A stretch of DNA of 33,630 bases from NCBI GenBank assembly GCA_013824615.1, contig PNOC01000039.1, positions 1-33,630 on the forward strand. Reading direction: 5' to 3'. The position numbers and the translations under genes were made by a program. Shown piece by piece: positions 1,215 through 28,988 of this stretch; the first letter of the stretch is position 1; the number at the start of each line of letters is the position of its first letter. This DNA is from Thermodesulfovibrio sp. Its GTDB lineage: Bacteria > Nitrospirota > Thermodesulfovibrionia > Thermodesulfovibrionales > UBA6898. The notes under the pieces were generated by a model, which saw only the letters and a list, made by a program, of their open reading frames with translations, made no database searches and was not told the DNA's origin.

Positions 1215-2060
1215 ATGAATATAAAAACAACTGAACGAATATATCGAGCCTGCATCCTTGCGGTGATGATAGTACTGGGTATGAGTGTGGCCGGCTGCTC
1301 CCACAAAGCAGCGAGGCTCTTCGCCCGGACGCAACCCGACGGCTGGAATGCCCAACCCATCTCGATCGTCTGCCGTTTTGCCCCCGATGCCGACCTGGAC
1401 CCCGCAACGCGAACTCCTGTTGGGGACGAGGGATATTATCTCTATATCCTGAACGAAGCTGCCGATTGGAACTACAGCGATGCATCGTCGCTTGTCTTTT
1501 CAATCTGGCAGCGTCCGTGGGCTCATAGCTGGCTGATCCTGGAAAGTCCCCGGGACCGCCTGGAATTTGGCCACACCGGAGACCTCGGGATAACGAAACC
1601 GCGCTTCCACGATGGCGTATATCAGAAAATCCGGGATGAGGATCCCAATCCTATCGCTTATTTGTGGCAGACGATGTCAGACGGCCAATTACAGATCGGC
1701 AAGCCGAATCGCCCCCCCACGTTTGTCTGGAGAATGCCGATTACCAAACGACGGCATCAGTTGATACATGACTATGTGATGCAGCGGAAGTATGACCAGT
1801 TCGGCGTGAGGACGAATAACTGCACCGATTTTGTGGCAGAGGCCGCGGCGCTGGCGGGCATTAACCTGATTCACCGCATGCGCCTAACCGTGCCGCAGGA
1901 AACAAAGGTTATGGGCAAGACGCTGCGTGTCTGGACGGATCCCCAATACCGCATATTGGAGTACAGCACGCCCGAGGTTCTGGATGCTGATCTGCGCCAG
2001 CTTGCCCGGTTAGGTATCGGGAGTGATGTCACTGAGTGGTACCTGTCATTGAAGTCGTGA
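1215..2060 (+). CDS. Lipoprotein with permuted papain-like (His...Cys) motif, paralogue 1
   Basis: A 281-residue protein with a signal peptide ending in the lipobox SVAGC (Cys28), so probably a lipoprotein. The conserved core PDGWNAQPISIVCRFAPDAD and VGDEGYYLYIL is followed by AHSWLILES and, near residue 200, NNCTDFVAEAAALAG. A histidine before a cysteine of this kind is the arrangement in circularly permuted NlpC/P60 or LRAT-like (papain-fold) enzymes, suggesting an amidase, peptidase or acyltransferase of the envelope; this is a motif-level inference. It is closely related along its length to the protein at 32084-32902. It precedes the megasynthase gene by 58 bp with no clear terminator, so co-transcription is possible. 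The ATG at 1215 is needed for a full-length signal peptide; the next Met (residue 18) would leave it too short. Confidence 0.8.
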   Translation: MNIKTTERIYRACILAVMIVLGMSVAGCSHKAARLFARTQPDGWNAQPISIVCRFAPDADLDPATRTPVGDEGYYLYILNEAADWNYSDASSLVFSIWQRPWAHSWLILESPRDRLEFGHTGDLGITKPRFHDGVYQKIRDEDPNPIAYLWQTMSDGQLQIGKPNRPPTFVWRMPITKRRHQLIHDYVMQRKYDQFGVRTNNCTDFVAEAAALAGINLIHRMRLTVPQETKVMGKTLRVWTDPQYRILEYSTPEVLDADLRQLARLGIGSDVTEWYLSLKS

Positions 2061-2118: not shown

Positions 2119-5100
2119 ATGGGTGAACGTATGGCATTAAAGCAGAGGCCTGACATAACGAATGACGTAGTGCCCCAGAGAGAGACTGAGAAGAGGGCTG
2201 CTGTCCTCGGGTTCGTCTGGAGGCCTGAGGAGATCACCCCACCGGTGATCGGGATGGCCCGGCGAACAGGCAGCAGGGCTATCTTCGATCTTTCCATGAT
2301 GGGAGTTGAGGGGTTACGTTCTCTTTTATTAAAAGCGGATCCTTCCTGCCAGGTCAGGGATATCAGGATTTCTGCCGCTACCTTCCTTGATCCATCGTTG
2401 GGACAGCTGCTTCAGGAAACAGGGATCCGGGACATCTGGGTAGACTGCCTTCCCCCGTTTTTCCAGGGAGATCCTTTAACCTTTATACAGAGATTAAGGG
2501 AATTGTCAAAAGACTATCGTTGTTTCCCGATCATCGGAAGCCTGGATCTCCTTGCAGAGATTTTCAAGGACAGTTCCGGCATCGGGAGCATCGTGCTGAA
2601 AGGATGCGAGGCTGCCGGATTTGTGAGCAGTGAGACGACCCTGTCTCTCTACGCAGCTGCCAGAGAAATGCTGCATCCAGACCCGGAGGCTTTTGATATT
2701 TTCATATGGGGAGGGGTCTCCACTCCTGAGGCCTCAGCGGCATTCCTGACGACCGGGGCCAGGGGTATTGTCTTCGAGAGCGTCCATTGGCTGACCGACC
2801 TGGTGGCCATTGATGAGCTTCAGCGCCAAAGGCTCTCCAGCCTCCGTCTGGATTCTACTGATCTGGTTGGTCTGGATCTTCAGGTCCCCTGCCGCCTTTT
2901 CAACAAGGGCAACTCTCTTGCCTTCACGGAGATCAGGAAGTTCGAGGACACGCTCTGCGGCGCAGAGATTACCAGGGAAAGCCGTTGCTCTTTCGCAAGC
3001 CGTATACAGGACAGGAGCCTTCACCCTCTGGGGAGCCACTTCAGCAGGGACGAGGTAATACCTCTGGGGGTGGAAGCTGTCTTTGCTTCGTCTTTCGCTG
3101 CGCGCTTTGGGACTGCAACAGAGGAGGCCGTGAAGGCCTTCATGGACGAGATTCATAACGTATGCCTTCTGGCCGAGGTGAAAAAGAATTGCTTTCTGGA
3201 CAGTCCTGCAGCCGGAGAGATGGGAACCAGGTACCCCTTTATCCAGGGGGCCATGTCCTGGATTACCGATCTCCCGGAGTTTGCCTCAAGGGTGGCCGAT
3301 GCCGGCGGGCTGCCGACCATCGCCCTTGGCCTGATGGACGCCGAGACCCTTGACCAGAGGCTGGGACGCCTGCCGGAGATCATGGAGGGGCGCCCTTATG
3401 CAGTGAATGTCGTCTCGCTGGCAGAGAACCCTTTCAGGGAGACACAGCTTGCCTGGATAAAGAAACAGAGACCCCGTTTTGTTGTGATCGCAGGCGGTGA
3501 TCTCACCCCCATAAGAGAATTGATAGCATGCGGCATTGGCGTAATATATATCGCTCCGGATGAGGCCCTGTTGAGGCTCGCCCTTGAAGCGGGCGTGAGA
3601 TATGTGGTCTGCGAGGGGTATGAGGCCGGCGGCCACGTGGGGCAGCATAGCACCCTCACCTTTGCTCAAATGGTGCTGGATCTGAAGCAACGCACGCCAT
3701 CCCTGCTTCAGGGGTGTCGCGTGATCCTTGCAGGGGGAATCTTTAATCGGGAGACCGCCTTTATGGCTGCCATGCTCGGCGCGGACGCCATCCAGATGGG
3801 GACCGCCTACCTGGCCGCCCCCGAAATCGTTGAAACAGGAGCCCTGACAGCGCTCTATCAGCGACTGATTCTGAAAGCGCCTCCGGGGGGAACTGTTGTT
3901 TCAGGCCAGGACACCGGGCTTCGGGTGCGGTCCTTGCGGACCCCAAGAGTGGAGGCTATTTTAGCCCTGGAGAGGGAGTTTGCAGCAGGCCAGAAGGACG
4001 AGTCCTCCTTCCGTTTGAAAATGGAGGAGATGGCCGCGGGCAGTCTCTTTGCCGCGGCCCGGTGCATGGACCGGACAGACGGGGCAGTTCTGGATGAGAG
4101 TGACTGTCTGGAACGCGGGCAGTTCATGAGCGGAGCCTGCGCCGGATTCATCCATGATCTCCGGAAACTGCAGTCCTTTCATCTCGAACTGGCCGAAGGC
4201 CCTCTACTGCTGCATCAGCCGGTTGTGGGATTGATCAGGAAAACACTGGAACCTCCAATGCCCGGTGCCGGTGGACTGACGCGAGTCGCCCACAGCAGAG
4301 ACTATTGTGCAGCAAACTATGGTGCCAATAGATATAGCGAACGGATTGCCATCACCGGGATGAGCATACTCAATGCCCTGGGCAATAGTCCGGAGGAAGT
4401 CTGGGCTGCAAGCCTGGCCATGAAAAGCGGGATTACCCTGGTGCCTCCTTCACGCTGGGATCAGGTGCTTTTTTATGATTCCCGGCCGCATGTCCAGGAC
4501 AAGACCTACTGCAGGGTGGGAGCCTTCCTGGATTTTCAGGTCTCCCGTAATGAACTCGGGATTCCCCCCCATGATTTCCGGACCATGACCGAGGCGACAA
4601 AGCTTACCCTGTGGCTGGCGGACAGGGCCATCAAGGCCTCCGGTATCCTGGAGTCGGATATTCCGCGTGAAAGAATCGGCGTCCTCATCTCCCAGAACTC
4701 GGGAGAGGCGGCAGGGGCACTCAACGATACCATAATCAGGGCTCATGTTCATGATATTCTCGGCGCTGTCCAGAGGGCCGTGCACCTCACGCCGGACCAG
4801 CGGAGCGCCATCGAACGGGAGGTGAAGTCAGGGCGCATAGCACCCGACGATACGACACTCCTGGGCAGACTCAACTCGGCTGCGGCCGGTTTCATCTGCA
4901 ACCGGTACGGCTTTATGGGGCCAAGTTACTCGGTATCCGCAGCGTGTGCAACCTCATTGGTTGCACTGCACAGCGCCATCCAGATGGTCCGGACCGGCAT
5001 CCTCGATGCCGCCATTATCGGCGGGGGAGAAGAGACCCTCAACCAGATGCATTTTCTCGAATTCTCGGCCATTGGAGCACTCTTCGGTATAACCGGGAAG

Positions 5101-8100
5101 GAGCGACCCCCTCACGAAACCTCCCGCCCCTTCGACGCTGAAAGAGACGGGATGGTCCTCGGCGAAGGCGGAGGGATGATTGTCATCGAGCGGGAGAGCG
5201 TGGCCCGTGCCAGAGGGGCGCGCATTGATGCCGTTATTACCGGCATGGGGGCAAGCAATAATAATCTGGGCATGGTGGAGTCCTCCAGCGTCACCCAGGA
5301 AATGGCTATCCGTGCATCGTTCCAGGGGCTGCCCTATGGGCCTGAGGCAGTGGACCTGGTGGAATGCCATGCCACGAGCACACGGCAGGGAGACGTGGAG
5401 GAGATTCATGCACTGAAGACGTTTTTTAATTTCTCCAGGCGCACGGTGCTCACTTCATTCAAATCCCAGATCGGACATACGCTGGGTGCCTCAGGCATTA
5501 ACAGCCTCATTCGGGGAGTGACGGCAATGCAGGCGGGGGTCTTTCCTCCTACCCTTAATTATATGCAGCCGGATCCGGATATGGCGATGGAAGGCTCGGG
5601 TCTCCTCATCGCCCCTCAGCCGCTGGACTGGAAGGGAAGGGCAGGCCATCCAAGAAGGTTTCAGGTCAACGCCTTCGGGTTCGGAGGTTCCAACTATGTT
5701 GTGCAGGTGGAGCAGGCCATGGATGAGGCGGATACGGTCATGGTCTGCCCAAGTCAATCACTTGGTCAGCCACTTGAGCATTCACTGAATCAGTCACTGA
5801 ATCAGTCAATCCCTCAGCCGGAATTGTCAGTTCCGCCGCTTGCCTTTGTATTCCCTGGACAGGGTTCACACTATGCAGGAATGGGACGGGAGCTCTACGA
5901 GACTTTTCCTGTCATCAAAGAATGGATGGACCGGGCTGCAGCTTCAGCGGATTTCGACCTCCTTCACTTATTGTTCCACGACCAGGAGGAAAATCTTCAG
6001 AAGACACGATGGCAGCAGCCGGCCCTGTTTGTATTGGAGCACGCCATGGCCCGATATCTGATGACTCTTGGAATCCGTCCCGTGGCGATGGCAGGCCATA
6101 GCCTGGGCGAGCTGATCGCCTTGTGTCTGGCCGGTGTCTATTCCCCGGAGGACGGGTTTCGGATCGTGAACAAGAGGGCGCTCTGCATGGACAAGGCAGC
6201 TGCCATGAACGTGGAGCCCGGCGTTATGGCGGCCGTGGACGCCCCCCTGGATCTGCTGAAAGATATGATGCAGGGACGGGAGAATGTCCACATCGGCAAT
6301 ATCAATTCACCGAACCAGATTGTCCTCAGCGGCAGCACCGCGGCGGTCAGGGATCTTGGAAAGCAACTGAAAGAAATGGGTTACCGGGCCACCTTCCTGC
6401 GGGTCAGTATGGCCTTCCATTCTCCTGTCATGAAGGTCATTCATGACGAGCTCGAGGCATACGTTGCCGCTATTCCTTTTCATGCTCCGCAGATTCCTGT
6501 TATCTCGAACACGACCATGGCACCGTATCCATCAGATCCGCAGGAGATCAGGCGCATCCTCATGGCCCACCTGGAATCTACAGTCCACTGGATGCATAAT
6601 GTCCAGACTCTCTGGAATGTATACGGCGTCCGGCATTTTCTGGAGGTTGGCCCCGGTGATATATTAAGCAATCTCATCAGTGACACTCTTCCTGAGGCAA
6701 CCTGCATCCAGACCTGCATACCCGCAGCAGAGGGCATCACCTACAGGACTGCGCTTGCTCAGCTCTTTGCTCAAGGTCACCTGAAGGCTGACAGCGAACC
6801 GGGGGTTGTGTCCCTCTCTGCATGCGGTAAGTCTCCGGCATCTGGCTGCAACATACCGGACAGCAAGGCCTCTCCTGCTGCAAGGCCGGGGCAGCCGGAC
6901 CATATAGAAGCGCTTATACAGATCATCATGGAGACGACAGGCTTTAACAGGGATGAAATCAAGCCTGATATGGATCTCAGAAGGGACCTCTCGATTCGTT
7001 CCAGCCGTCTGCCGATAATCATGGATGCAGCGGAACGGCATTTCGGCATCACGATCGAACTGGAGGATTTCATAGGCCTCCGCACGGTGAGGGAGATTGC
7101 GGAGAAGATTTCCGGCATAGTTGCCGTGAAGGACGGAAAAGAGAGCTCGAACCAGCCGGGGCTGCAGCCTGCGTTTAGGGGAACTGAATCAGGCTTAATT
7201 CACGACCAAACCCTGAGGCCCTTGCAGGATGAGGCGGGTTTAAAGCGGCTTGTATTCAGGAGCGTTCCGCTGGAGTTGTCGGCATCTGCGCCAATAAAGC
7301 TCGGCCAGGGCGAGTCGGTGATTTTCTTCTCGCCTGATAGGGATAGTGCCGGGGATGACGATATTGTCAAAAATACAGAAAATATATTCCGCCAGGATTA
7401 CGGGATTGATACGATTCCAATGCTGTTCATGAAAATGGAAAATGACGGAAAAGCCGGCGAGGGAGGTCATGATATTTTTTCTGATGAAGGTTCTTACAAG
7501 GCGGCAGAGAAGATATCGGGCCTGACGTCCCTGGCGGGCATGGTTATAACCTTACCTGAAGGCTGGTCGAAAAAGTTAACAGGTGCAGCGGATGTTTCCC
7601 GGCTTTTGAGGTGGCTGTTGTTACCGTTAAAGGCCTTTCTCCGGTCACCTGCAAGGAAGTTCGTCCTGCTGGTGCATTCCAGGGAAGATGCCGAAGCTCA
7701 CGGTCGGCTGCTCGTCGAAGGCATGCTCGGACTTTTTCTGAGTGCTGCGCAGGAACACCCGTCGGTCCAGTTTCGGACACTGGAAATAGCGAGGGAAGCA
7801 GGTGGGGAAATCGGGAGAGCTGCCGACCTTCGCAGTGCAATCCGCAGCGCGCTTGACAGGGGATACCCTGTGGTGGAGATCATCCATCGTGATGGAAGGG
7901 TCTATACCTCGGAGGGTTACGTGGCCCACTCGGTCTTCGGAGATTCGGAAGGTCTGGTCCTTAGCCCTGGAGATGTCATAGTCATGTCCGGCGGCGCAAC
8001 CGGGATCAGCGCCCACCTGGCCCGCAGTCTGGCGCCTTTTGCGCCCAGACTGATTTTTCTGGGGAGGACCGCTCCCGATTCAGACGGCGCCAGGGCGTCG

Positions 8101-9708
8101 GAGATTACCCGGACCCTGGCTGATCTGCAGTCCTTGGGGATTGAGGCGACGTATCATGTCTGTGATGTGACCGACCCTGAAGCGGTCCAAAAGACCATGG
8201 CCGAAGTGGCAGGCCGATATGGCAGGATCGACGGGATTATTCACGGCGCCGGAATACTCAGGGACGGTCTCTTAAGCCAGATGACTCCCGATGATTTCTC
8301 CATGGTAACGGACGTCAAATTCCTTGGGGCCTGGAATCTGTTCTCTGCTGCGGAAGGGGCGGGTCTGAGATTTTTCGTGGGCCTTTCTTCTGCGGCTGCG
8401 ATTCAGGGAAATCCCGGCCAGGCCAACTATGCTGCGGCCAATCGGATGATGTCTGCGTTACTCAGAACCCTCCACCTGAAAAACAGCGTTATCAGGTTCA
8501 AGGCCCTGATGCTTCCCCCTGTCGAAGGGGCCGGCATGGCCGAGGACCCGGAGGTCCGGGAATTGCTGAAACAAAAGGGAGTGGCGTACATCCATGTGAA
8601 GGAGCTTGCAGGGCTTTTCTGCCGGGAGCTCTTTGTGGCCCCGGTTGCTGACGATTGGGTGATGTTTATGCGGAGACTTCCATCGGTGAGGACGACACTG
8701 TTGAATGATACAATCAGTCCTTCACTCAGTGGGGAACTCGATGGAGGCACGGTTTCCCTGAGCTCCTGTGACTTTCCCATGATTGATGGAATCTCTTGCC
8801 TGGATATCAGCCGGGAAGAACTCGAAGCCGTCAGAGCCTTCTCCCTTGAGAAAGATCTATGGATCGCGGACCACAGACCTTTCCAGTTCGTTAAGTATCC
8901 TCTGGTCTCAGCCTGTATGGTTCTTGAAACATTTATGGAGGCCGCCATGGTCCTGTATCCCTACCTTAAGGTGAGGGGGGTCCGTCAGGTGCGGCTTCTG
9001 GATATGATCCAGTGTCCTCCCGGAGTTCCGAGGCCTTCACGGATCTCCTGCCGCCGGGCCGGCAGCGGTCTTCGGGACGTATTATGCGAGGTTTCTCTTG
9101 CAACACAGGAGATCTCCCCTTCCGGGAGATTGACCGACCGCTTCACCCTGCATTGCAGCGGTCAGGTGATACTTGCCGGCGGGGATGTTATTAACGGATA
9201 TTCTGGGGAGGGACTCCCGGATTTTTCTCCTGTACGCGAAGAAGAACTGCGGACGGGGCCCATGCATCAGAAAATGGATCAGAAAAAAGTGCTTGCATGG
9301 TACAAAGACCGCAGCGGTCTCGAAGGCAGGTATCGCGTGATGGAGTCCCTTGACGGTGCAGGTCCGGGAGTAGTGCGGGGCCGCACCACCTACCGGGAGA
9401 CGCGTGACTTTGCAGCTCCGCAGGAGACCAGATACCAATACTCTCCCTATCTTTTGGAGGCCCTTTTGCAGTTGATCGGCTTTCAGGTCGCTGCAACAGA
9501 CCCCTCGGAGCGGCGATCGCTGATTCCCCTGGAGATAGGGGAGATGAGGTTTTTGCGAAAATGTCTCTCAGGGGAGCAGATAATCCTGGAGGCCCGTTTG
9601 AGGGCTCAAAATGACGAAAGTCTCTCCTGGGACGCCAGAGGCATTGACGGTCAGGGCCGTACCATCATGCAGCTTCATGGTATTCGGATGCACTGGGTTT
9701 CGGACTGA
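2119..9708 (+). CDS. Multidomain lipid/polyketide megasynthase: NMO-like x2, KS, AT, ACP, KR, DH-like
   Basis: A 2529-residue type I iterative-looking synthase. Domains in order: a degenerate nitronate monooxygenase-like TIM barrel (about 25-250, KGCEAAGF in place of the usual loop); a second, canonical one (about 368-600, CEGYEAGGHVG and LGADAIQMGTAYL), the family of the PfaD-type FMN enoyl reductase; ketosynthase (about 740-1200, Cys943 in SAACATS, His1084, His1120 in GHTLGASG); acyltransferase (about 1240-1520, Ser1328 in GHSLGE, His1434); carrier protein (about 1585-1655, Ser1628 in DLSIRSSRLP); ketoreductase (about 1950-2170, SGGATGIS, Ser2091, Tyr2104); and a hot-dog dehydratase-like C-terminus (His2252, Glu2447). 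No thioesterase or terminal reductase is seen. The layout recalls Pfa/Hgl-type secondary lipid synthases, with the enoyl reductase fused at the N-terminus. The product is unknown. ATG 2119 has only a distant GGAGGGG; ATG 2131 is an alternative. Confidence 0.93.
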   Translation: MGERMALKQRPDITNDVVPQRETEKRAAVLGFVWRPEEITPPVIGMARRTGSRAIFDLSMMGVEGLRSLLLKADPSCQVRDIRISAATFLDPSLGQLLQETGIRDIWVDCLPPFFQGDPLTFIQRLRELSKDYRCFPIIGSLDLLAEIFKDSSGIGSIVLKGCEAAGFVSSETTLSLYAAAREMLHPDPEAFDIFIWGGVSTPEASAAFLTTGARGIVFESVHWLTDLVAIDELQRQRLSSLRLDSTDLVGLDLQVPCRLFNKGNSLAFTEIRKFEDTLCGAEITRESRCSFASRIQDRSLHPLGSHFSRDEVIPLGVEAVFASSFAARFGTATEEAVKAFMDEIHNVCLLAEVKKNCFLDSPAAGEMGTRYPFIQGAMSWITDLPEFASRVADAGGLPTIALGLMDAETLDQRLGRLPEIMEGRPYAVNVVSLAENPFRETQLAWIKKQRPRFVVIAGGDLTPIRELIACGIGVIYIAPDEALLRLALEAGVRYVVCEGYEAGGHVGQHSTLTFAQMVLDLKQRTPSLLQGCRVILAGGIFNRETAFMAAMLGADAIQMGTAYLAAPEIVETGALTALYQRLILKAPPGGTVVSGQDTGLRVRSLRTPRVEAILALEREFAAGQKDESSFRLKMEEMAAGSLFAAARCMDRTDGAVLDESDCLERGQFMSGACAGFIHDLRKLQSFHLELAEGPLLLHQPVVGLIRKTLEPPMPGAGGLTRVAHSRDYCAANYGANRYSERIAITGMSILNALGNSPEEVWAASLAMKSGITLVPPSRWDQVLFYDSRPHVQDKTYCRVGAFLDFQVSRNELGIPPHDFRTMTEATKLTLWLADRAIKASGILESDIPRERIGVLISQNSGEAAGALNDTIIRAHVHDILGAVQRAVHLTPDQRSAIEREVKSGRIAPDDTTLLGRLNSAAAGFICNRYGFMGPSYSVSAACATSLVALHSAIQMVRTGILDAAIIGGGEETLNQMHFLEFSAIGALFGITGKERPPHETSRPFDAERDGMVLGEGGGMIVIERESVARARGARIDAVITGMGASNNNLGMVESSSVTQEMAIRASFQGLPYGPEAVDLVECHATSTRQGDVEEIHALKTFFNFSRRTVLTSFKSQIGHTLGASGINSLIRGVTAMQAGVFPPTLNYMQPDPDMAMEGSGLLIAPQPLDWKGRAGHPRRFQVNAFGFGGSNYVVQVEQAMDEADTVMVCPSQSLGQPLEHSLNQSLNQSIPQPELSVPPLAFVFPGQGSHYAGMGRELYETFPVIKEWMDRAAASADFDLLHLLFHDQEENLQKTRWQQPALFVLEHAMARYLMTLGIRPVAMAGHSLGELIALCLAGVYSPEDGFRIVNKRALCMDKAAAMNVEPGVMAAVDAPLDLLKDMMQGRENVHIGNINSPNQIVLSGSTAAVRDLGKQLKEMGYRATFLRVSMAFHSPVMKVIHDELEAYVAAIPFHAPQIPVISNTTMAPYPSDPQEIRRILMAHLESTVHWMHNVQTLWNVYGVRHFLEVGPGDILSNLISDTLPEATCIQTCIPAAEGITYRTALAQLFAQGHLKADSEPGVVSLSACGKSPASGCNIPDSKASPAARPGQPDHIEALIQIIMETTGFNRDEIKPDMDLRRDLSIRSSRLPIIMDAAERHFGITIELEDFIGLRTVREIAEKISGIVAVKDGKESSNQPGLQPAFRGTESGLIHDQTLRPLQDEAGLKRLVFRSVPLELSASAPIKLGQGESVIFFSPDRDSAGDDDIVKNTENIFRQDYGIDTIPMLFMKMENDGKAGEGGHDIFSDEGSYKAAEKISGLTSLAGMVITLPEGWSKKLTGAADVSRLLRWLLLPLKAFLRSPARKFVLLVHSREDAEAHGRLLVEGMLGLFLSAAQEHPSVQFRTLEIAREAGGEIGRAADLRSAIRSALDRGYPVVEIIHRDGRVYTSEGYVAHSVFGDSEGLVLSPGDVIVMSGGATGISAHLARSLAPFAPRLIFLGRTAPDSDGARASEITRTLADLQSLGIEATYHVCDVTDPEAVQKTMAEVAGRYGRIDGIIHGAGILRDGLLSQMTPDDFSMVTDVKFLGAWNLFSAAEGAGLRFFVGLSSAAAIQGNPGQANYAAANRMMSALLRTLHLKNSVIRFKALMLPPVEGAGMAEDPEVRELLKQKGVAYIHVKELAGLFCRELFVAPVADDWVMFMRRLPSVRTTLLNDTISPSLSGELDGGTVSLSSCDFPMIDGISCLDISREELEAVRAFSLEKDLWIADHRPFQFVKYPLVSACMVLETFMEAAMVLYPYLKVRGVRQVRLLDMIQCPPGVPRPSRISCRRAGSGLRDVLCEVSLATQEISPSGRLTDRFTLHCSGQVILAGGDVINGYSGEGLPDFSPVREEELRTGPMHQKMDQKKVLAWYKDRSGLEGRYRVMESLDGAGPGVVRGRTTYRETRDFAAPQETRYQYSPYLLEALLQLIGFQVAATDPSERRSLIPLEIGEMRFLRKCLSGEQIILEARLRAQNDESLSWDARGIDGQGRTIMQLHGIRMHWVSD

Positions 9709-9725
9709 GCCGGGGTGACAGGCAG

Positions 9726-10487
9726 ATGAGAGTGCCTCTGGCAGCGGATCGCGAAGAAATAACCGTCTGTACGATGAACCCTGTTTATCGAGGGGGACCG
9801 GTCTTCTATGCATCGTTTCCCTGCGGGCCATCTGTCGCGGAAAACCTCAAACATTGTCTCGCCTCCACCTTGTGGGATCACCTTATGGCGATGGAAACGC
9901 CTCTTTGGAAATGCAGTCAATTTTCGAACGGAGCAGCCTTGCCAATTCAGGTTGTCCGCGGTCTGCTTGGCAGGCCCCGGTTTCTGTTGGGAGAATATGA
10001 GGGGCCGTCTATCTCCTTCAGCGAGGGCGGAGGAAATCTCTGGGCTGCCCTTTGTGGAGATAAGTCTGCTATCGGCATCGATGTGGCAGGGTCAAATGAA
10101 TTTAAAAAAGAATACCCCTTCCACCGGGTCTTTCATCCGGAAGAGCTGCAACAGGCCTTGAGAATAACCGGCGAAAACCTGGAAGAGGCAGCTGCCCTGC
10201 TCTGGTCTGTCAAGGAAGCCGCTGTCAAGGCTCTCGGATCTGCATTTCATCTTGTGGATCCGCTGCAGATAATTGTCTATCCATATAAAGAGGAAGCCGG
10301 GGAGAAGGCAGACGGGGATGCGGGGTATTCCTTTTCAGTGGGCCTGTCGGGAAAGGCCCGTAAACGGCTTGAAAGCTTTTCCCTGGCTGCCGGAGCCCTT
10401 TCGGTCCGTTCTCTTCCCCAGAGGAAGGCGTGGCTTTCGATCGCCCTTTTGAGAGAAATCCGGCAGGCCATGAATAACCATGAATAA
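9726..10487 (+). CDS. Sfp-type 4'-phosphopantetheinyl transferase
   Basis: A 253-residue protein that should move phosphopantetheine from CoA to the carrier-protein serine of the upstream megasynthase. The family's two metal/CoA motifs are visible: IGIDVA (Asp119) and WSVKEAAVKALG (Trp160, Lys163, Glu164, Lys168), with a phenylalanine-rich RVFHPEE stretch between. Length is normal for Sfp/HetI-type enzymes, which activate polyketide and PUFA synthases, rather than the shorter AcpS type. It starts 17 bp after the megasynthase stop and overlaps the next gene by 8 bp, so it is surely in the same transcript. The role is firm; specificity for the neighbouring carrier domain is inferred from position. 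Confidence 0.9.
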   Translation: MRVPLAADREEITVCTMNPVYRGGPVFYASFPCGPSVAENLKHCLASTLWDHLMAMETPLWKCSQFSNGAALPIQVVRGLLGRPRFLLGEYEGPSISFSEGGGNLWAALCGDKSAIGIDVAGSNEFKKEYPFHRVFHPEELQQALRITGENLEEAAALLWSVKEAAVKALGSAFHLVDPLQIIVYPYKEEAGEKADGDAGYSFSVGLSGKARKRLESFSLAAGALSVRSLPQRKAWLSIALLREIRQAMNNHE

Positions 10488-11724
10488 GTCCATAAATCAA
10501 ACAACCAATAACCTTACCTGCAAATGCGTGCCGCGGTTGGACGGCGTGCCGGCTGCAGATCTGGCCCGGCTTTTCCCTGAGCCTTCTATTACTGCCCCGC
10601 TTCTTTCCCTTCTGCAGGAATCGGGTATTGACGGTTTTACCCTGCGGAGCATTGTCGTGTCAGACGGTGATACCCCTGTCCTCTTACTGCCGCTGTTTGA
10701 AACCCGGTTTGATCTGTCCGCCTTTGTGAAGGGATGGACCAGAAAATCTCTAAAAGTGGCAGGCCGTCTCCTCCCCTCGGTTTTCCAACCCCGCATTTTA
10801 TGCGTGGGGCTGCTGGTTGGGGAATGGAGTGAAATCGGGGTTGATCCTCACCTCGACGGGGCTACCCTCGATGAGGCCTGCACTATGGCCTTTGACGCCC
10901 TGCAGCAGCTTGCAGTCGAGCGCACTAGCGACCTCGTGTCGTTCTATAACTTTAATCATTTGGGCAAACTTCCCGCAGAAGTATTCAAAAAATTCAACCA
11001 GGTGGAATGCCAGTCCTGCGCGCGACTGCCGATAAATTTTAACAGCATGGAGGAATTTCTGGAACGCTTTTCAAAGGCCGCCAGAAAAGACCTGCGCCGC
11101 AAGATGCGAGCCGCCGGTGAAGTCCATGTTGTTCGAAGCCGCGATATTTCTCCTTTCCTGGACAGGATCTACACGCTGTATCTGGAAACAGTGGCACGGA
11201 GCCCCCTGGCGTTTGGCAGGCATAACCGTTTATTTTTTGAAAAAATATGCGCTTCTGTCGCGGGAGCCGAATACACGCTCTATTTCGTGCAGGAAGAACT
11301 CGTTGCCTTCAACCTCCTTGTCGTAAAACAGGAGGCGATGGTGGATAAATATTTCTGCATGGATTACGGGCCCGGACGTAAGTACAATCTGTATGTTTTG
11401 TCCTGGCTCGAAAATGTCCGCACCTGCATGGAGCAAAAGATCCCTCTCTATTACTCGGGCCAGGGCGCGGAGAAGACAAAAACGCATCTGGGTGCGACGT
11501 TAATCCCGAGCTATATTTTGTTCAGACACCGGTTGCCCCTGATTGACCGTTTCCTGACAGCGTGGCCCGGGGTTAACGGTAAGGTCCTCAGTCATCTCGG
11601 ATTCTGGCACAAGGATACCTCGCGCCCGTCTTCTGATATTCCGGTATCAGGTAACTTTCAAAAGCAACCCCCCTCAATCCCTGCTCCCACAATGGAGGGG
11701 TTTGAGCGAAAGGGAGATGCGTGA
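10480..11724 (+). CDS. BioF2/FemAB-like GNAT acyltransferase
   Basis: A 414-residue protein whose second half reads as the GNAT fold of the BioF2-like/FemAB group (LPINFNSMEEFLERFSKAAR, KDLRRKMRAAG, then AFNLLVVKQEAMVDKYFCMD and YYSGQGAEKTKTHLG). Family members transfer acyl or aminoacyl groups to amines. The N-terminal 170 residues (LLLPLFETRFDLSAF) look like the usual first GNAT-like half. It overlaps the phosphopantetheinyl transferase gene by 8 bp and the ABC ATPase gene by 4 bp, so it is translationally coupled into the lipid operon. Because the megasynthase shows no thioesterase, this enzyme is a reasonable candidate to release the chain from the carrier protein onto an acceptor; that is a hypothesis from context. 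Confidence 0.75.
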   Translation: MNKSINQTTNNLTCKCVPRLDGVPAADLARLFPEPSITAPLLSLLQESGIDGFTLRSIVVSDGDTPVLLLPLFETRFDLSAFVKGWTRKSLKVAGRLLPSVFQPRILCVGLLVGEWSEIGVDPHLDGATLDEACTMAFDALQQLAVERTSDLVSFYNFNHLGKLPAEVFKKFNQVECQSCARLPINFNSMEEFLERFSKAARKDLRRKMRAAGEVHVVRSRDISPFLDRIYTLYLETVARSPLAFGRHNRLFFEKICASVAGAEYTLYFVQEELVAFNLLVVKQEAMVDKYFCMDYGPGRKYNLYVLSWLENVRTCMEQKIPLYYSGQGAEKTKTHLGATLIPSYILFRHRLPLIDRFLTAWPGVNGKVLSHLGFWHKDTSRPSSDIPVSGNFQKQPPSIPAPTMEGFERKGDA

Positions 11725-12668
11725 CCAGAGAAACTGAATATGCAATCGAAGTCGACAGGCTGACGAAGCGTTACGGGGATTTTCCGGCGGTCAACGATAT
11801 ATCGTTCTCTGTCAGCAAGGGCGAGGTGTTTGCTTTTCTTGGCCCGAACGGCGCAGGCAAAACCTCGACGGTTGAGATAATCGAGACGATCCGCATGCCC
11901 ACATCCGGGAAAGTGACCCTGCTTGGCATGGACGTTACAAAGAAGAAGCACGAGATCGTCCACCGCATCGGCGTCCTCCCGCAGGCGTTCAGTTCGTTCG
12001 ACAGGATCACCGTCCGGGAGACGCTCCAGTACTACTCCAGGCTTTTCAGCGTGAAGACCGATCTCGACGGATTGATAGAGCTTGTGAACCTGGGGGACAA
12101 GACTAAAGAGCAGTATAAGAACCTCTCCGGCGGCCTGAAACAGCGCCTGGGAATAGCGATTGCCCTTGTGAACGATCCGGAGGTCGTGTTTCTCGACGAG
12201 CCGACGACAGGGCTCGACCCGCTTGCCCGGCACGAGGTATGGGAGGTCCTGCTCGGCCTCAAGAAGAAGGGGAAGACGGTATTTCTCACCACACACTATA
12301 TGGAAGAGGCAGAGCTTCTTGCGGACACGGTTGCCATAATCTCGAAGGGGAAGATAATCGCCATGGGTTCTCCCGGGGAACTCATCGAAGACAACGCGAA
12401 TTATCTGGCCCTCACGCTGAGGTCTGTCGATGAAAAGGTCCTTGAAATCGTCCAAAAGCTGGGTTTCGGGACGGTCCCTGATAAACATAAAAACATCAGG
12501 ATCAGGGTGGAGCAGACGTACGACGTCCAGAAGATACTGCAGGCCATAAAGGATGCCGGGGCCCGGTACCGGAGCCTCGACGTGCGCAGGCCTAATCTTG
12601 AAGAGGTCTTCCTGAAGCTCACCGGTGAGGCGCTCCGGGAGGAGCTGCCCGAAATGGAGGCAGAATGA
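11721..12668 (+). CDS. ABC-2-type transporter ATP-binding subunit
   Basis: A 315-residue ATPase of the DrrA/CcmA-like export group. Walker A GPNGAGKTS is at residues 41-49, the signature LSGGLKQR near 135, and Walker B with D-loop VVFLDEPTTGLDP near 155; the switch histidine lies in FLTTHYMEEAE. The C-terminal 80 residues are the extra domain typical of drug, lipid and polysaccharide exporters. The start is GTG 11721 (GTGA overlap with the upstream stop) behind the ribosome site AAGGGAGA. It overlaps the permease gene by 4 bp. Context suggests export of the lipid made by the preceding genes; the substrate is not shown by sequence. Confidence 0.93.
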   Translation: MTRETEYAIEVDRLTKRYGDFPAVNDISFSVSKGEVFAFLGPNGAGKTSTVEIIETIRMPTSGKVTLLGMDVTKKKHEIVHRIGVLPQAFSSFDRITVRETLQYYSRLFSVKTDLDGLIELVNLGDKTKEQYKNLSGGLKQRLGIAIALVNDPEVVFLDEPTTGLDPLARHEVWEVLLGLKKKGKTVFLTTHYMEEAELLADTVAIISKGKIIAMGSPGELIEDNANYLALTLRSVDEKVLEIVQKLGFGTVPDKHKNIRIRVEQTYDVQKILQAIKDAGARYRSLDVRRPNLEEVFLKLTGEALREELPEMEAE

Positions 12669-13780
12669 ACGTGCGCATCATCAGTGCAAACCTCGTGGTG
12701 AAGCTCCTGAGCTTCTACCGCGAGAAGACGACCATGTTCTTTACTTTTGCGTTTCCGATAATCCTGATTCTTGTCTTCGGCACAATCTTCATGAGCCAGG
12801 ACAGCATGGAATACCGCCTTAGCGTACAGGACCTTGACCAGACGAATTCCTCCGCAGAGTCGATCAAGACCCTCGCGAAAAAGGGGAAGTTCAAAATAAC
12901 CAGTGTCGACCCTGCTGTCGACGCCGTGCAGTACGTCAGAGACAGCAAGGTGAACCTTCTCCTCGTTGTTCCCAGAGGCTATGCTGCGTCCCTCATGCAG
13001 AGGATAATATTCAACGATTACAGTTCATCTGTCACCATCACCTATGTGTACGACCCCAGTTCCTCTTCGGTGCAGACAAAGATGCAGATCCTCAATGCTG
13101 CGCTGGCCGGGATAAACCAGGGGATGTCCGGGAGGGCTCCGTTTATCCGCTCGGCTGAGAAATCGATACTCACCAAGAAATACCGGTTTATCGAGTTCTT
13201 CGTGCCCGGCATCATCGCGATGTCAATTATGACGATGAGTCTTTTCGGTACCGTTGACTCGGATACGGAACTGCGGCAGAAGGGTGTCATCAGGAAGCTG
13301 TCCACCACGCCCATCACCCGTACTGACTGGATACTATCAAACGTCCTGTATCAATTCATACTCGCGGTCATATCCACCCTTGCCATGCTGCTGGTGAGCT
13401 ACGCTGTGTTTGATGTTAACCTGCATATTGATGCCTGGCTCCCGGTATTCATTCTGCTTGACGTGTTCGCGTTTGTCGGGACCGGGATGATACTCACCCG
13501 CTTCGTGAAGGAGGCGCAGAGCGCCGCCGCAGCCTCAAACGCTATCAGTTACCCGATGATGTTCCTCGCGGGAAGTTTTTTTCCGATAGAATTGATGCCG
13601 GGGTTGCTGCAGACAATCGCCAAAAAACTGCCCCTGTATTACGTAAACGAGGGGCTCCGTGCATCGATGGTATTTGAAGACAACATGGCCGCGTTGAGGT
13701 CTGCAGCTATTATAGGTGTTTATGCCGCCGTGGTCTTCATCCTGGGGATTATGGCCACGAAATGGGAAGAGAACCAGTGA
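12665..13780 (+). CDS. ABC-2-type transporter permease
   Basis: A 371-residue inner-membrane protein with the ABC-2 layout: one N-terminal membrane segment (near residues 20-40, MFFTFAFPIILILVFGTIF), a long extracytoplasmic domain (about 45-170), then five hydrophobic segments to the C-terminus, including the YPMMFLAGSFFPIELMPG hairpin typical of the family. It starts at an ATGA overlap with the ATPase gene and should form the exporter with it. The next gene overlaps its stop. Confidence in the family is high, in the substrate low. Confidence 0.92.
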   Translation: MNVRIISANLVVKLLSFYREKTTMFFTFAFPIILILVFGTIFMSQDSMEYRLSVQDLDQTNSSAESIKTLAKKGKFKITSVDPAVDAVQYVRDSKVNLLLVVPRGYAASLMQRIIFNDYSSSVTITYVYDPSSSSVQTKMQILNAALAGINQGMSGRAPFIRSAEKSILTKKYRFIEFFVPGIIAMSIMTMSLFGTVDSDTELRQKGVIRKLSTTPITRTDWILSNVLYQFILAVISTLAMLLVSYAVFDVNLHIDAWLPVFILLDVFAFVGTGMILTRFVKEAQSAAAASNAISYPMMFLAGSFFPIELMPGLLQTIAKKLPLYYVNEGLRASMVFEDNMAALRSAAIIGVYAAVVFILGIMATKWEENQ

Positions 13781-15570
13781 CCGTAACGCAGCCCCCTCGC
13801 GCCTTCAGGCAGATAACCCGCCGCCGCGCCCTGAGCGCCCTGCTTGCAGCAACACTCTCAGTCGTCATTGATTTTATGTTGAGATTCAGTGATTATCAGA
13901 CTTCGCTGAACCTGTTGCCGTCCGCTGGTGCCCTGAGGCTGCCGGTCACCCTCACGCTGGCCTTCCTGCAGGTTTTTGTTCTCTTGTATCTCGGCCTTCT
14001 CCTCCCGAGATTTCTCCGGGCGGCGGTCCTGCTCCTTTCTGTCCTGGTGGTCATCGTCCAATGCTCCTATTGGCTGACGTTATCCCAGTTCATGACCAGC
14101 ACCGACCTGCTTCTCGCCCTGACCGTCGGAGGAGAAAATCGGGCTGATGCCATCACGAGTTTCTTTCAGTTGCGCGTTTTTCTGTATGCTCTCCCCTATG
14201 TACTCGTTCTGTCTGCACTGGTGTTTGTCCCCCCCCGCATAAGCCCTCCCACCAGCACTCACGTAAGTGCTCTATCTGGCTTCCGCAAGACCCTGGCCCT
14301 CAGTCTGCTGCCGGTGCTCTACCTTCTCTTTTCCAGTTACGCCCTCTTCCTCTACGTGCCGGAACGCAGCTTTCACCTGAATCCCCTGACCTCACTTCTC
14401 CGTGCAACAGTCCACTACAAGCTTGAAAACCTGGGTGCATATCACGGGCTACGGGACGAACTGCCGCTGTTTCAGGCGCCCCAGCGTCCACGCGACAGCA
14501 TTATTTATGTTATCGATGAGTCAGTGCGCGGCAGCAATCTCAGTCTGAACGGGTATCCGCGCGACACGACTCCGTTTCTGCAATCTCTCGAAAAACGGGG
14601 GTGCCTCAAAAATTTAGGCATTTGTGTTGCGGCCGGTTCCTATTCCCATATCAGCAATGCCTATCTCATCAGCGGTCACCATACCTTTCCCGACGACGGT
14701 TTCCGGACCGACAGAAACCCGACCCTCTTTGATTACGCAAAGAGAATGGGCTACGAGACGCTTTACATTGACATCAATCACGGGTACCTGCCCAAGCTCA
14801 TGAAAGCGGCCGGGGATAGTCCCGTGAGGTCCCTGGACCAATGGATGAACGAGCAGTCTTTCGAGGAGCGCCATATTGATCTTGAAACCACGAAGGACCC
14901 GGGCATAGCCCGCTTTCTCAGCAGGCTTCTGAATGAAAGAGGCGGCTATTTCATTGTCGTCAACAAGAAGGGCCTGCATTTTCACTATCACTACAGATAC
15001 CCGGCCGATTCGGCCTCTGCGATATGGAGGCCGGTTATGGAAGCATCGGAACCCATTGACACCAGCGCTGCCGGACGTGAGAAGCTGGTAAATACGTATG
15101 ACAACGGCATCCGCTTTCAGGTGGATGAATTCTTCCGGGTATTTGTATCCGAGACAAAGAACCAGAACTATATCCTCCTCTATACATCGGACCACGGCCA
15201 GACCTTAGCAGAGCAGGGACAGGTCTATACCCATATGAAGCCCGACGCGGTGATCGTCGATGTCCCCGAATTCCTCGTGCTGGGAGAACGCTATGGCAGA
15301 AGAAATCTCCTGGCCGGGATTCCACCCGGTGTAAGGGTTTCCCATCTCAATAATTTCGCGACCCTTCTTGACCTGATGGCTGTGCCGATGTCCTTGCGGG
15401 TCCGTCCTTATGAAACATCGATCTTCTCTTTGGCCGGGGAGAACAGTAAGCGCTACTACATGACCGGTTCTCTTCATGGATCCGGTGATTACGTGGTGAG
15501 GGCGATACCCACCCCACCGGATGCGGGCTGGGGCGTTTCGAGACCTCCTTCACCTCAGCTTCAAAGATAA
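13777..15570 (+). CDS. EptA/CptA-like membrane phosphoethanolamine transferase-family protein
   Basis: A protein of about 597 residues with five N-terminal membrane segments (to about residue 190) and a periplasmic alkaline-phosphatase-fold domain. The family motif LSLNGYPRDTTPFL is clear, with metal ligands in VIDES (Glu248) and YTSDHGQTL (Asp472, His473). The nucleophile position, a threonine in EptA, reads AAGSYSHISNAYLISG here, so a serine (288 or 290) may replace it. Relatives move phosphoethanolamine or similar headgroups from phospholipid to lipid A or glycans. I chose GTG 13777 because it makes the same GTGA stop overlap as at 11721; ATG 13762 in the same frame is an alternative. As last gene of the operon it probably modifies the exported lipid or its carrier. 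Confidence 0.8.
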   Translation: MTVTQPPRAFRQITRRRALSALLAATLSVVIDFMLRFSDYQTSLNLLPSAGALRLPVTLTLAFLQVFVLLYLGLLLPRFLRAAVLLLSVLVVIVQCSYWLTLSQFMTSTDLLLALTVGGENRADAITSFFQLRVFLYALPYVLVLSALVFVPPRISPPTSTHVSALSGFRKTLALSLLPVLYLLFSSYALFLYVPERSFHLNPLTSLLRATVHYKLENLGAYHGLRDELPLFQAPQRPRDSIIYVIDESVRGSNLSLNGYPRDTTPFLQSLEKRGCLKNLGICVAAGSYSHISNAYLISGHHTFPDDGFRTDRNPTLFDYAKRMGYETLYIDINHGYLPKLMKAAGDSPVRSLDQWMNEQSFEERHIDLETTKDPGIARFLSRLLNERGGYFIVVNKKGLHFHYHYRYPADSASAIWRPVMEASEPIDTSAAGREKLVNTYDNGIRFQVDEFFRVFVSETKNQNYILLYTSDHGQTLAEQGQVYTHMKPDAVIVDVPEFLVLGERYGRRNLLAGIPPGVRVSHLNNFATLLDLMAVPMSLRVRPYETSIFSLAGENSKRYYMTGSLHGSGDYVVRAIPTPPDAGWGVSRPPSPQLQR

Positions 15571-15593
15571 ATGTAGTTTCCCTGGTGTAAAAT

Positions 15594-16187
15594 GTGAACA
15601 TGCCTGAAAAAGTCTTACTGAAGATCATAGCGGTTATTTTAAGCGTGCTTTGTACCGTCGTTATTTTAGAAAGCAGCGAGAGGGATGCAAGGTCCCACAG
15701 ACTTTCCGGGCCTCATGCCGATGCAACGCACCTGGAAAAGAAGATTCATACCATGATTAATAAGGAAAGAGCGAAAAAGGGTCTGCCCGCTCTAGTATGG
15801 GATGACAGCCTGCAGAGCATAGCCCGGACATACAGTCAGGATATGGTGCAGAGGAACTTCTTTTCTCACGTCGACCCCGATGGCAGAACTTTTTATGACA
15901 GATATAAAGCTGTCCGGTTCGAGTGTAGAATCCAGGTGCGCGACACTACCTGTCTGGGGGCAGAGAATATCGCACAGGACAATCTCTATAGTTCATCATT
16001 TTATAAGGACGGCAAAACTTTTTATAACAGCAATACAGAATATGAGATTGCGGAATCAGTCGTAAAAAGATGGATGAGCAGTAAGAGCCACAGGAAAAAT
16101 ATCCTGACGCCGTATTTCAAACGACAGGGAATCGGCGTTGCTCTGGCTGAGGACGGCAAAGTCTACGTAACAGAAAATTTTTGCTGA
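15594..16187 (+). CDS. Secreted CAP/SCP-domain protein
   Basis: A 197-residue protein with an N-terminal hydrophobic signal or anchor (LLKIIAVILSVLCTVVIL) followed by a CAP (SCP/PR1-like, PF00188) domain. Hallmarks: INKERAKKGLPALVWDDSLQ, ARTYSQDM, FFSHVDPDG (cavity His), GAENIAQ and WMSSKSHRKNILTPYF (second His). A VYVTENFC end is close to the usual WVQNF tail. Bacterial members are extracellular proteins of mostly unknown activity. Start GTG 15594 or ATG 15600, both with weak ribosome sites. It follows the lipid operon by 23 bp, so read-through is possible, but there is no sign of shared function. Confidence 0.88.
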   Translation: MNMPEKVLLKIIAVILSVLCTVVILESSERDARSHRLSGPHADATHLEKKIHTMINKERAKKGLPALVWDDSLQSIARTYSQDMVQRNFFSHVDPDGRTFYDRYKAVRFECRIQVRDTTCLGAENIAQDNLYSSSFYKDGKTFYNSNTEYEIAESVVKRWMSSKSHRKNILTPYFKRQGIGVALAEDGKVYVTENFC

Positions 16188-16277
16188 CAAATCGGCAATA
16201 GCTCTGCAGGGCAGCTCGCCCAGCTGAAAATGGCTGACGTCTCAACTTCTCAACGGAATTAGACTCATGAATAGTAA

Positions 16278-16307
16278 TTGGACAATTGCGTCTATCCATG
16301 GTAAATA
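16278..16307 (+). promoter_or_regulatory. Possible promoter of the small lipoprotein gene
   Basis: TTGGAC at 16278-16283 and TAAATA at 16302-16307 are 18 bases apart and lie 33 bases before the ATG at 16340. The match is modest. Confidence 0.3.
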
Positions 16308-16339
16308 ATAAGAGAATATACTACAAAGGAGGTGTCACA

Positions 16340-16522
16340 ATGACATTGATCAGGAAAGTGCTTTTGCTGGTTTGCGGTCTCATGCTGGCCTTCTCTCTGG
16401 CAGCATGCGAAAAGAAAGGTCCTCTGGAGAAGGCGGGGGAAAAGGTCGATAAAGCGATCGAGAAGGCCGGAGAAAAGGTAGAAAAAGCCGGTGACAAGGT
16501 GAAGGAAAAAACAGAGAAGTAG
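16340..16522 (+). CDS. Small lysine/glutamate-rich lipoprotein (60 aa)
   Basis: ATG 16340 is fixed by a strong ribosome site (AAAGGAGG, seven bases upstream). The product has a signal peptide ending in the lipobox SLAAC and a mature part of only about 37 residues made of repeated EKAGEKV/EKAGDKV units, which should form one charged amphipathic helix or coiled coil at the membrane. It resembles small envelope lipoproteins of the entericidin or Lpp size class, but I do not recognise a named family. A perfect 10-bp hairpin follows 50 bp after the stop. Confidence 0.82.
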   Translation: MTLIRKVLLLVCGLMLAFSLAACEKKGPLEKAGEKVDKAIEKAGEKVEKAGDKVKEKTEK

Positions 16523-16570
16523 CAATACCCACGGGGCACTCCGAAGGCTGTTTTTCGGAAAGGAACAATA

Positions 16571-16596
16571 GGGCACAGGAGCAATATCCTGTGCCC
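16571..16596 (+). terminator. Hairpin after small lipoprotein gene
   Basis: GGGCACAGGA (16571-16580) and TCCTGTGCCC (16587-16596) pair perfectly around a six-base loop, 48 bp after the stop codon. No T-run follows, so it may be a weak terminator or an mRNA 3'-end stabiliser. Confidence 0.5.
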
Positions 16597-16659
16597 TGTC
16601 TGCCGGCGGGCAGGCTTGCCCCGGAACATTGCGTTTCTCCTGCGTGTTTTTAAAGTAGT

Positions 16660-17026: not shown

Positions 17027-17039
17027 AGTCAAAACTATT

Positions 17040-19549: not shown

Positions 19550-19569
19550 AGCCAAAAGGAGGGCATACC

Positions 19570-27632: not shown

Positions 27633-28988
27633 ATGAAAATAAAACTTATCGCGCCGCGTGAACAGCGTGAAGACGCATTATCCAGCCCATTTAAACTGCA
27701 GAGGGTAAATCTCCCTCTCCTGGCAGCGCTTACTCCACCCGGCCATACGGTTACCCTGGTCGATGAGGCCTTTGCCCCTGATGATACTGATCAGGATGTG
27801 GATCTGGTGGGTATCACGGTCATGACTGATGTTGTGCCAAGGGCCTATGACATCGCTGATGCCTATCGCCGGAAGGGGGTGAAGGTGGTGATGGGGGGAA
27901 TACATCCCACGGTATTGCCTGAGGAAGCCTTAGGGCATGCAGACGCTGTCGTCGTGGGAGAAGCGGAAGGTATCTGGCCGCGGCTACTATCGGATGCCTC
28001 CTCGGGACAGATGCAAAGACTCTATCGGGCCGAAAAAATGACCGATCTTCAGGGCCTGCCGAAGCCGCGGCGTGATCTCTTTCCCGGAACCAAAGGGAAA
28101 AGCTATATCCCGGCCCCCGTCGGCGTCGAGACGTCCCGCGGATGCCCAAACGATTGCGAATTCTGCTCCATCAGCCGGACCCTGGGATCTCAATATCGGG
28201 TAAGACCGGTCCCGGAGGTTATTGCCGAGATAGAGGCTCTTGCTTCACCGTACATCTTCTTCGTCGATGACGCCCTTGCGCTGAACCGTACAGCGGCCAA
28301 AAAGCTTTTCACGGAAATGATACCGCTTAACCGATTATGGCTGGGGCAGGGGACGGTGTCTCTTGCTGAAGATCCGGAACTGCTCAAGCTGATGAAGCGC
28401 TCAGGCTGCCTGGGGCTCCTGATCGGCTTTGAATCAGTACAGAAAGCAGCACAGGATGAGGTAAGGAAAATAAAGAACCTCAGGATCGATTTTGATGAGG
28501 CCATGCGTCGTTTTCATGGCGAGGGTTTCGGCATACTCGGAGCTTTTGTGCTTGGCTTTGATCACGAAAACAGGGATGTCTTTGATCAGACCCTTGAGTT
28601 CATAATGAGGAGTTGTATAGATTGTGCCGAACTGAGAATCCTCACGCCGTATCCGGGCACCCGGTTATATGACCGTCTCTTGAGCGAAGGCAGATTGTTC
28701 GAGCCTGACTGGTGGCTCAGGGGATATCCTCCTGATACGCTTCTGTATCAACCCCGGGGCATGACGGCCGAAGAGCTCATCAACGGATTCGCCCGCCTGA
28801 ACAGAGAGGCCTATTCCTTCGGCGCCATAACAAAACGCTTCTTCGGCATGAGCCCGTGGAAGCGGGGGCTGCTCGGCTGCCAGGTATATGCCGGGATAAA
28901 TCTGGCTACCCGCAAACGTTATTTCGAAGGTCTGAAGAATCCGCAACCCTATGCAGGGACTTCGACTGCAAAAAGGGAAAAAGTTTAG
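27633..28988 (+). CDS. B12-binding-domain radical SAM enzyme
   Basis: A 451-residue class B-type radical SAM protein. The N-terminal half is a cobalamin-binding-like Rossmann domain (LIAPREQREDAL, LVDEAFAPDD, VGITVMTDVVPRAYDIADAYR, VVMGGIHPTVLPEEAL, DAVVVGEAEGIWP). The iron-sulphur cluster motif CPNDCEFC gives Cys171, Cys175 and Cys178, followed by FFVDDALALN, LGLLIGFES and ILTPYPGTRLYDRL. Relatives are methyltransferases or ring/chain-modifying enzymes, including hopanoid and lipid tailoring enzymes. It uses no DxHxxG base-off motif that I can see, as is common in this group. It is alone between non-coding stretches, so the substrate cannot be inferred from neighbours. Confidence 0.9.
   Translation: MKIKLIAPREQREDALSSPFKLQRVNLPLLAALTPPGHTVTLVDEAFAPDDTDQDVDLVGITVMTDVVPRAYDIADAYRRKGVKVVMGGIHPTVLPEEALGHADAVVVGEAEGIWPRLLSDASSGQMQRLYRAEKMTDLQGLPKPRRDLFPGTKGKSYIPAPVGVETSRGCPNDCEFCSISRTLGSQYRVRPVPEVIAEIEALASPYIFFVDDALALNRTAAKKLFTEMIPLNRLWLGQGTVSLAEDPELLKLMKRSGCLGLLIGFESVQKAAQDEVRKIKNLRIDFDEAMRRFHGEGFGILGAFVLGFDHENRDVFDQTLEFIMRSCIDCAELRILTPYPGTRLYDRLLSEGRLFEPDWWLRGYPPDTLLYQPRGMTAEELINGFARLNREAYSFGAITKRFFGMSPWKRGLLGCQVYAGINLATRKRYFEGLKNPQPYAGTSTAKREKV

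Follow-up and report, generated by a model that had tools for sequence, protein, structure and literature searches.

A horizontally mobile gene cluster of a Thermodesulfovibrio species that may assemble and export an envelope lipid

The stretch of DNA analysed here, referred to below as the window, is the 33,630-nucleotide contig PNOC01000039.1 (C39), part of the 3.6-Mb assembly of a Thermodesulfovibrio species. Six consecutive genes, here named A to F, had been proposed by a sequence-only reading to form a lipid assembly and export operon. All six open reading frames are present on the forward strand with the ends drawn by that reading (Table 1), and Pfam and NCBIfam uphold its domain calls: an NMO/FabK-type enoylreductase (ER), ketosynthase (KS), acyltransferase (AT), acyl carrier protein (ACP), ketoreductase (KR) and PS-DH-type dehydratase (DH) in A, a phosphopantetheinyl transferase (PPTase; B), a FemAB-like/GNAT protein (C), a DrrA-type ATPase (D), an ABC-2 permease (E) and a member of the sulfatase/phosphoethanolamine-transferase superfamily (F). 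Together these form a coherent predicted set for synthesis, activation, transfer, export and headgroup addition. The borders of the proposed set were too narrow, however, as the conserved set consists of about nine genes: A to F, two upstream genes (g1 and g2), and a gene further downstream (P).

Table 1. Genes of the conserved cluster and a g2 paralogue, with positions in the window (aa, amino acids).
Gene	Predicted product	Position	Strand	Evidence
g1	N-acyltransferase, YghO/bCerS (bacterial ceramide synthase) family; 5' end lost at contig start	1..984	+	homology to E. coli YghO
g2	281-aa predicted lipoprotein, lipobox ..AGC28	1215..2060	+	lipobox, co-occurrence with cluster
A	2529-aa type I synthase	2119..9708	+	Pfam/NCBIfam domains
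B	Sfp-type phosphopantetheinyl transferase	9726..10487	+	PF01648 E 1.5e-10; WSVKEA and GIDVA motifs
C	FemAB-like/GNAT-fold acyltransferase	10480..11724	+	PF13480 24.7 bits (cut-off 22); PF04339 24.7 (cut-off 27)
D	ABC exporter ATPase, DrrA/NodI type	11721..12668, GTG start	+	TIGR01188 E 1.3e-81, below cut-off
E	ABC-2 permease	12665..13780	+	PF12698 E 2.9e-32
F	membrane-bound EptA/MCR-like transferase	13762..15570	+	PF00884
P	B12-binding radical-SAM enzyme, HpnJ/BchE/AprD4-like	27633..28988	+	PF04055 E 1e-14, PF02310 E 1e-13, CPNDCEFC motif
g2b	g2 paralogue, about 60% identity	32084..32956	-	sequence comparison

How widespread is this arrangement? A pattern scan for C returned seven loci, in metagenome-assembled genomes assigned to Nitrospirae, Thermodesulfovibrionales, Limisphaerales, Thermodesulfobacteriota, Deltaproteobacteria and Geobacteraceae, and as far as the contigs reach, each of them repeats the gene content and order seen around C in the window, at 49-86% identity. 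Gene order, by whose loss the sequence-only reading would have been refuted, is therefore kept in other genomes. Genome searches added G241 and G307, both of the host's own taxonomic order, and G737 (G and L are our working labels for genomes and loci; G003 corresponds to L007 and G296 to L011), which brings the total to eleven genomes including that of the window, from the Nitrospirota, the Verrucomicrobiota and the Deltaproteobacteria/Thermodesulfobacteriota. The cluster is rare, being found in 6 of 396 Nitrospirota genomes and, for the phylum to which G404 belongs, in 2 of 395. In a tree of C, D and E, G241 and G307 group with the Geobacteraceae and a deltaproteobacterium (supports 0.97-1.0, with one weak node), and a Thermodesulfobacteriota genome adjoins the group of the window, to which it is 79.3% identical, compared to 78.7% for a genome of the same genus. 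This mixing of phyla shows that the cluster moves horizontally and has been transferred between bacterial phyla. Between the window and the same-genus copies, the ratio of non-synonymous to synonymous substitution rates is about 0.07-0.4 per gene for the eight genes tested, pointing to purifying selection. Conserved across phyla and under such selection, the six-gene block goes far beyond what chance would produce.

The junctions within the block largely agree with the sequence-only reading, which had described a 17-bp gap followed by overlaps of 4-8 nucleotides (nt). The gap between A and B and the next three overlaps, of 8, 4 and 4 nt, are as described, while E and F overlap by 19 nt. The same 19-nt overlap is seen in L007, L008, L009, L013 and L038, and this recurrence suggests translational coupling rather than accident. 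Upstream, g1 and g2 overlap by 4 nt in L038, L041, L044, L045 and L058, where g2 then runs into A. In the window these two genes are parted by 230 bp (985-1214) of palindromic repeat-like sequence (GTCATTCCCGCGCAGGCGGGAATCC). An Rfam scan of the window gave no match.

The domains of A are ordered NMO-like (degenerate) - NMO/FabK ER - KS - AT - ACP - KR - DH. The second NMO region carries a FabK-like EGYEAGGH, and the first reads KGCEAAGF, without the His. The catalytic residues C943/H1084/H1120, S1328/H1434, S1628 or S1629, Y2104, H2252/E2447 and H506 are invariant among five full-length orthologues of 69-74% identity, so that the motifs for a complete reductive cycle are present. Among solved structures, the KS and AT match modular polyketide synthases (PKSs) and FabF/FabD, and the AT carries an AFH motif, which is usual for malonyl. 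About 255 residues between ACP and KR (1690-1945; positions 7186-7951) contain no Pfam domain, nor did profile comparison yield a KR match there. The two NMO halves match each other partially and weakly by profile comparison, too weakly to retain the idea that the N-terminal half originated as a repeat; Beijerinckia ArsA also shows two NMO stretches.

The sequence-only reading had named synthases of polyunsaturated fatty acids (Pfa) and heterocyst glycolipids (hgl) as relatives of A, yet the closest that we found is the Ars (alkylresorcinol, 'Type P') synthase. The best full-order matches among plasmid-borne proteins are type I PKSs of Methylosinus and Beijerinckia. Next to these stand genes resembling type III PKSs and one that combines DH and PPTase domains, an arrangement that corresponds to the Ars/Type P cluster listed for Beijerinckia indica by Shulse and Allen (PMC3098273). 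A and ArsA align colinearly (27% identity across 1536 aligned columns), and the DH of A matches that of Methylosinus ArsD (E 1e-4). A is thus the equivalent of ArsA joined to the ArsD dehydratase, and B that of the ArsD PPTase. Pfa and hgl synthases do share related KS, AT and KR domains and a PfaD-like ER with A (TIGR02813 E 9.9e-129, below cut-off), but A is one polypeptide with an N-terminal ER, a C-terminal PS-DH and no second KS. A Pfa synthase was rejected on account of the single KS, the single ACP in place of tandem ACPs, the PS-DH-type DH in place of a FabA-like DH pair, and the fact that no chain-length factor (CLF) was detected. The hgl type was set aside likewise, since it is defined by an HglC-type KS-CLF-AT and separate subunits (PMC3098273), while A is a single fused protein without CLF.

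Could the cluster then be an Ars cluster proper, making phenolic lipids? An ArsA-like synthase, a PPTase and an ABC exporter occur together here as they do in Beijerinckia and Methylosinus, where the exporter adjoins the Ars genes, and the ArsABCD system of Azotobacter vinelandii and Beijerinckia indica likewise combines an NMO-NMO-KS-AT-ACP-KR megasynthase with DH and PPTase domains in a partner gene. However, the DH is fused to the synthase and the PPTase is free-standing here, whereas both are fused in ArsD; A has one ACP instead of two, and its first NMO domain lacks the usual His. Moreover, the type III PKSs are replaced by two GNAT acyltransferases, an EptA-like enzyme, a B12-dependent radical-SAM enzyme and a lipoprotein, and no type III PKS (the counterpart of ArsB/ArsC) was found among the scanned window genes or the conserved genes of the other loci. 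We consider this reading very improbable. Within the Ars system itself, ArsA is reported to hand its acyl chains directly to ArsB/ArsC (PMC6274091), and alkylresorcinols end up as membrane components (PMC4824345). Since A has no thioesterase, its chain would probably be passed straight to an acceptor enzyme in a similar fashion.

The strongest pointer to the class of the product is g1, the ceramide-synthase-like gene which the sequence-only reading had overlooked. The 324 residues of g1 present in the window are 33.6% identical to E. coli YghO, and a full-length orthologue (386 aa, L038) is 30% identical to it over 371 residues (E 5e-63), which places it within the bCerS/YghO family. In a published list, yghO is paired with Caulobacter CC_1154, whose acyltransferase acts in the making of dihydroceramide (PMC9386255). 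Furthermore, contig C14 of the host genome carries a second bCerS copy beside serine palmitoyltransferase (SPT; NF047600, 583 bits, cut-off 640) and a CerR-like epimerase, and this SPT-CerR-bCerS locus is found in other Nitrospirota cluster genomes as well. Compared to the canonical ceramide pathway (Spt, bCerS, CerR), with which g1 provides the homologous link, the present cluster adds a dedicated megasynthase, exporter, EptA-like gene and radical-SAM gene, all of which the canonical locus lacks. A precedent for a type I PKS feeding sphingolipids exists in PfSgaAB of Pseudomonas fluorescens MYb115, an iterative type I synthase entering the sphingolipid pathway (PMC12134224). By description, that system is set apart in that SgaB is an SPT beside the PKS, whereas here SPT and CerR lie elsewhere and the bCerS-like enzyme is in the cluster. 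Bacterial ceramide synthesis also requires a translocation step across the inner membrane (PMC11087976), which D and E could supply.

The DrrA/NodI type of this exporter, combined with a patchy and horizontal distribution typical of secondary metabolism, could alternatively point to a secreted specialised metabolite, such as a lipid antibiotic or siderophore-like compound exported by a DrrAB-like pair, instead of a structural lipid. We regard this as improbable: the conserved set includes no non-ribosomal peptide synthetase, thioesterase or outer-membrane export component, the bCerS-like and EptA-like enzymes suggest membrane lipids, and g2 is a predicted lipoprotein.

F and MCR-1 can be aligned from end to end (E 1.4e-21), with the metal-ligand positions retained in F. 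F differs from the EptA/MCR phosphoethanolamine-lipid A transferases in scoring far below their family cut-offs and in being dispensable in some clusters. Orthologues are present in 7 of 10 cluster genomes; F is absent from G296 and G107 (and from the loci L011 and L012), and in G405 a deletion scar between E and P (L010:13281-13553) encodes its last 80-90 residues. The G737 stretch gave no F match either. At least three cluster genomes thus lack the EptA-like gene or keep only a piece of it, so the headgroup step that the sequence-only reading had counted as part of the set is not obligatory.

Considering the above, we think it reasonably probable that these genes are a horizontally transferred cluster which makes a lipid of the cell envelope. 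The genes present, their order and conservation, the intact catalytic motifs and the spread between phyla are established from the sequences, whereas each chemical step, the product, and whether that product is a sphingolipid, we infer from protein families. PPTase B would activate the ACP of A. A, an iterative type I synthase of the Ars kind whose single polypeptide holds KS, a malonyl-type AT, KR, DH and an ER of the flavin mononucleotide type, would then use its own ACP to build a long acyl chain that is largely saturated. The GNAT-fold N-acyltransferases g1 and/or C would be the acceptor enzymes that put this chain on an amine, for which a sphingoid base is the best candidate, because the host has SPT and CerR. 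D and E would carry the lipid to the periplasmic side, F would add a phospho-head group where its gene is retained, P may alter an unactivated carbon of the chain, by methylation or in some other way, and g2 would serve as an envelope lipoprotein.

Several observations weigh against this model. The predicted fold of C rests on a weak Pfam match, its AlphaFold model being unusable (predicted local distance difference test, pLDDT, 35), even if C orthologues are 65-78% identical in the other cluster genomes. In F, the nucleophile position differs from EptA/MCR: CGTSTAYS of MCR reads CVAAGSYS, with the Thr changed to Gly and an adjacent conserved Ser. The cluster itself contains neither SPT nor CerR, which in the host genome lie on another contig. 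At E<=1e-60 no SPT match was obtained in G405, and the one in G408, at 43%, could be another alpha-oxoamine synthase. In a g1 tree (sequence L047_g1 left out), g1 forms a clade separate from the SPT-linked bCerS, which the Nitrospirota cluster genomes already own, and the substrate of g1 may therefore differ. Lastly, nearly all genomes of the host's order carry SPT, so finding it there has little weight, and for that reason its co-occurrence was rejected as proof that the product is a sphingolipid.

In a narrower version of the envelope-lipid model, the product would be a true sphingolipid, with A giving either the N-acyl chain via g1 or a starter chain for SPT, so that the cell would make very-long-chain or modified ceramides in addition to its housekeeping ceramides. 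The bCerS-like g1, the SPT-CerR-bCerS locus of the host and the SgaAB precedent (PMC12134224) argue for it, as does L009 of G404, the one locus where SPT and CerR adjoin the cluster, about 3 kb behind it and without a bCerS of their own in the stretch read. No bCerS was seen next to SPT in G403 and G404, gaps that may be assembly limits. Conversely, the missing SPT in G405, the doubtful one in G408, its absence from the cluster and the position of g1 outside the SPT-linked clade leave the sphingolipid link plausible, not established, and we lean somewhat against a true sphingolipid. Those same two genomes, carrying the cluster without a clear SPT, and the always-linked GNAT/FemAB-like protein C would suit an aminolipid, such as an N-acyl amino acid, that C makes without a sphingoid base, with g1 and C adding two chains or using different amines. 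This appears rather unlikely, as it leaves a bCerS-family enzyme heading the operon unexplained, and as the set has no amino-acid-activating or pyridoxal-phosphate enzyme.

With regard to the added members of the envelope-lipid cluster, g2 is present in all six Nitrospirota cluster genomes and in 1 of the 390 others (396 genomes; hypergeometric p about 1.4e-12, ignoring phylogeny), the single exception being an incomplete genome of the window's genus that also shows g1. It mostly lies before A, but between B and C in L010 and behind F in L008. No Pfam, NCBIfam or PDB match was found for g2, and Foldseek and VIA-align gave no credible match for its weak AlphaFold model (pLDDT 62). His104 and Cys203 are invariant, in the order of the NlpC/LRAT-like permuted papain-like fold; given the weak model and no credible structural match, this Cys-His idea is a motif reading only. 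A counterpart of g2b stands beside P in the same-genus genome G003 (L046:16886-17731), and G307 has three g2-like copies, two on L041 and one on L042.

P directly follows F or E in L010, L011, L013, L038/L039 and L083, whereas 12 kb of other genes separate it from F in the window, and 2 kb in the same-genus L007. Orthologues of 74-88% identity were found in 8 of the 10 cluster genomes searched, plus G737. P has the CxxxCxxC motif and B12 domain of B12-dependent radical-SAM enzymes, while scoring far below every specific family cut-off. A Tes-like role (tetraether/diabolic acid) was rejected, as the PDB sequence matches include no Tes, and the AprD4 and CysS types match best. On contig C90 of the host genome, divergent from g1, lies another B12 radical-SAM gene (L056:208-1509; 37% identity to P), behind which stand relatives of the C14 sensor histidine kinase gene. 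Since C90 also bears a piece of the g1 N terminus (L056:2-91), it probably abuts the window.

The genes at 15594-27166 were not accepted as cluster members, because they are not found behind F in most cluster loci. The one pair that recurs, at 20513-21318, probably encodes a TacAT-type toxin-antitoxin system, with a TacA-like antitoxin (PF08681) first and a GNAT protein behind it. In L007 this pair likewise lies between F and P (15125-15900). A KAP-family NTPase on the reverse strand (24105-26276; PADLOC PifA model E 9.6e-76) and its two uncharacterised neighbours (23223-24014 and 26279-27166) are possible phage-exclusion genes between F and P. In both Thermodesulfobacteriota loci, a FabF-type ketosynthase gene occurs downstream of the cluster (L009:7552-12718 and L083:586-1824), in L009 together with PAP2, SPT and CerR genes.

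Among the open-licence PMC papers searched, no description of this cluster was found. Its combination of genes differs from Ars, Pfa, hgl, SgaAB (by description) and the canonical ceramide clusters, with all parts except g2 coming from known superfamilies; the closest conceptual precedent is the PKS-derived sphingolipids (PMC12134224). Tentatively, and at somewhat less than even odds, we propose a new envelope-lipid class whose genes have moved between phyla as one module: an Ars-type type I synthase coupled to a dedicated ceramide-synthase-like N-acyltransferase, a flippase of its own, an EptA-like enzyme for the head group and a B12-dependent radical-SAM enzyme that modifies the tail. If true, uncultured groundwater and sediment bacteria would own a transferable and self-contained pathway for a special envelope lipid, in which type I 'secondary lipid' synthases meet bacterial ceramide synthesis, two subjects that are usually handled separately. 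For a lipid of the sphingolipid type, the exporter would be a candidate flippase; such a step is to be expected in view of where the Caulobacter enzymes reside, Spt and bCerS in the cytoplasm and CerR in the periplasm. The cluster as a whole would offer a candidate origin for unassigned lipids in anoxic environments.

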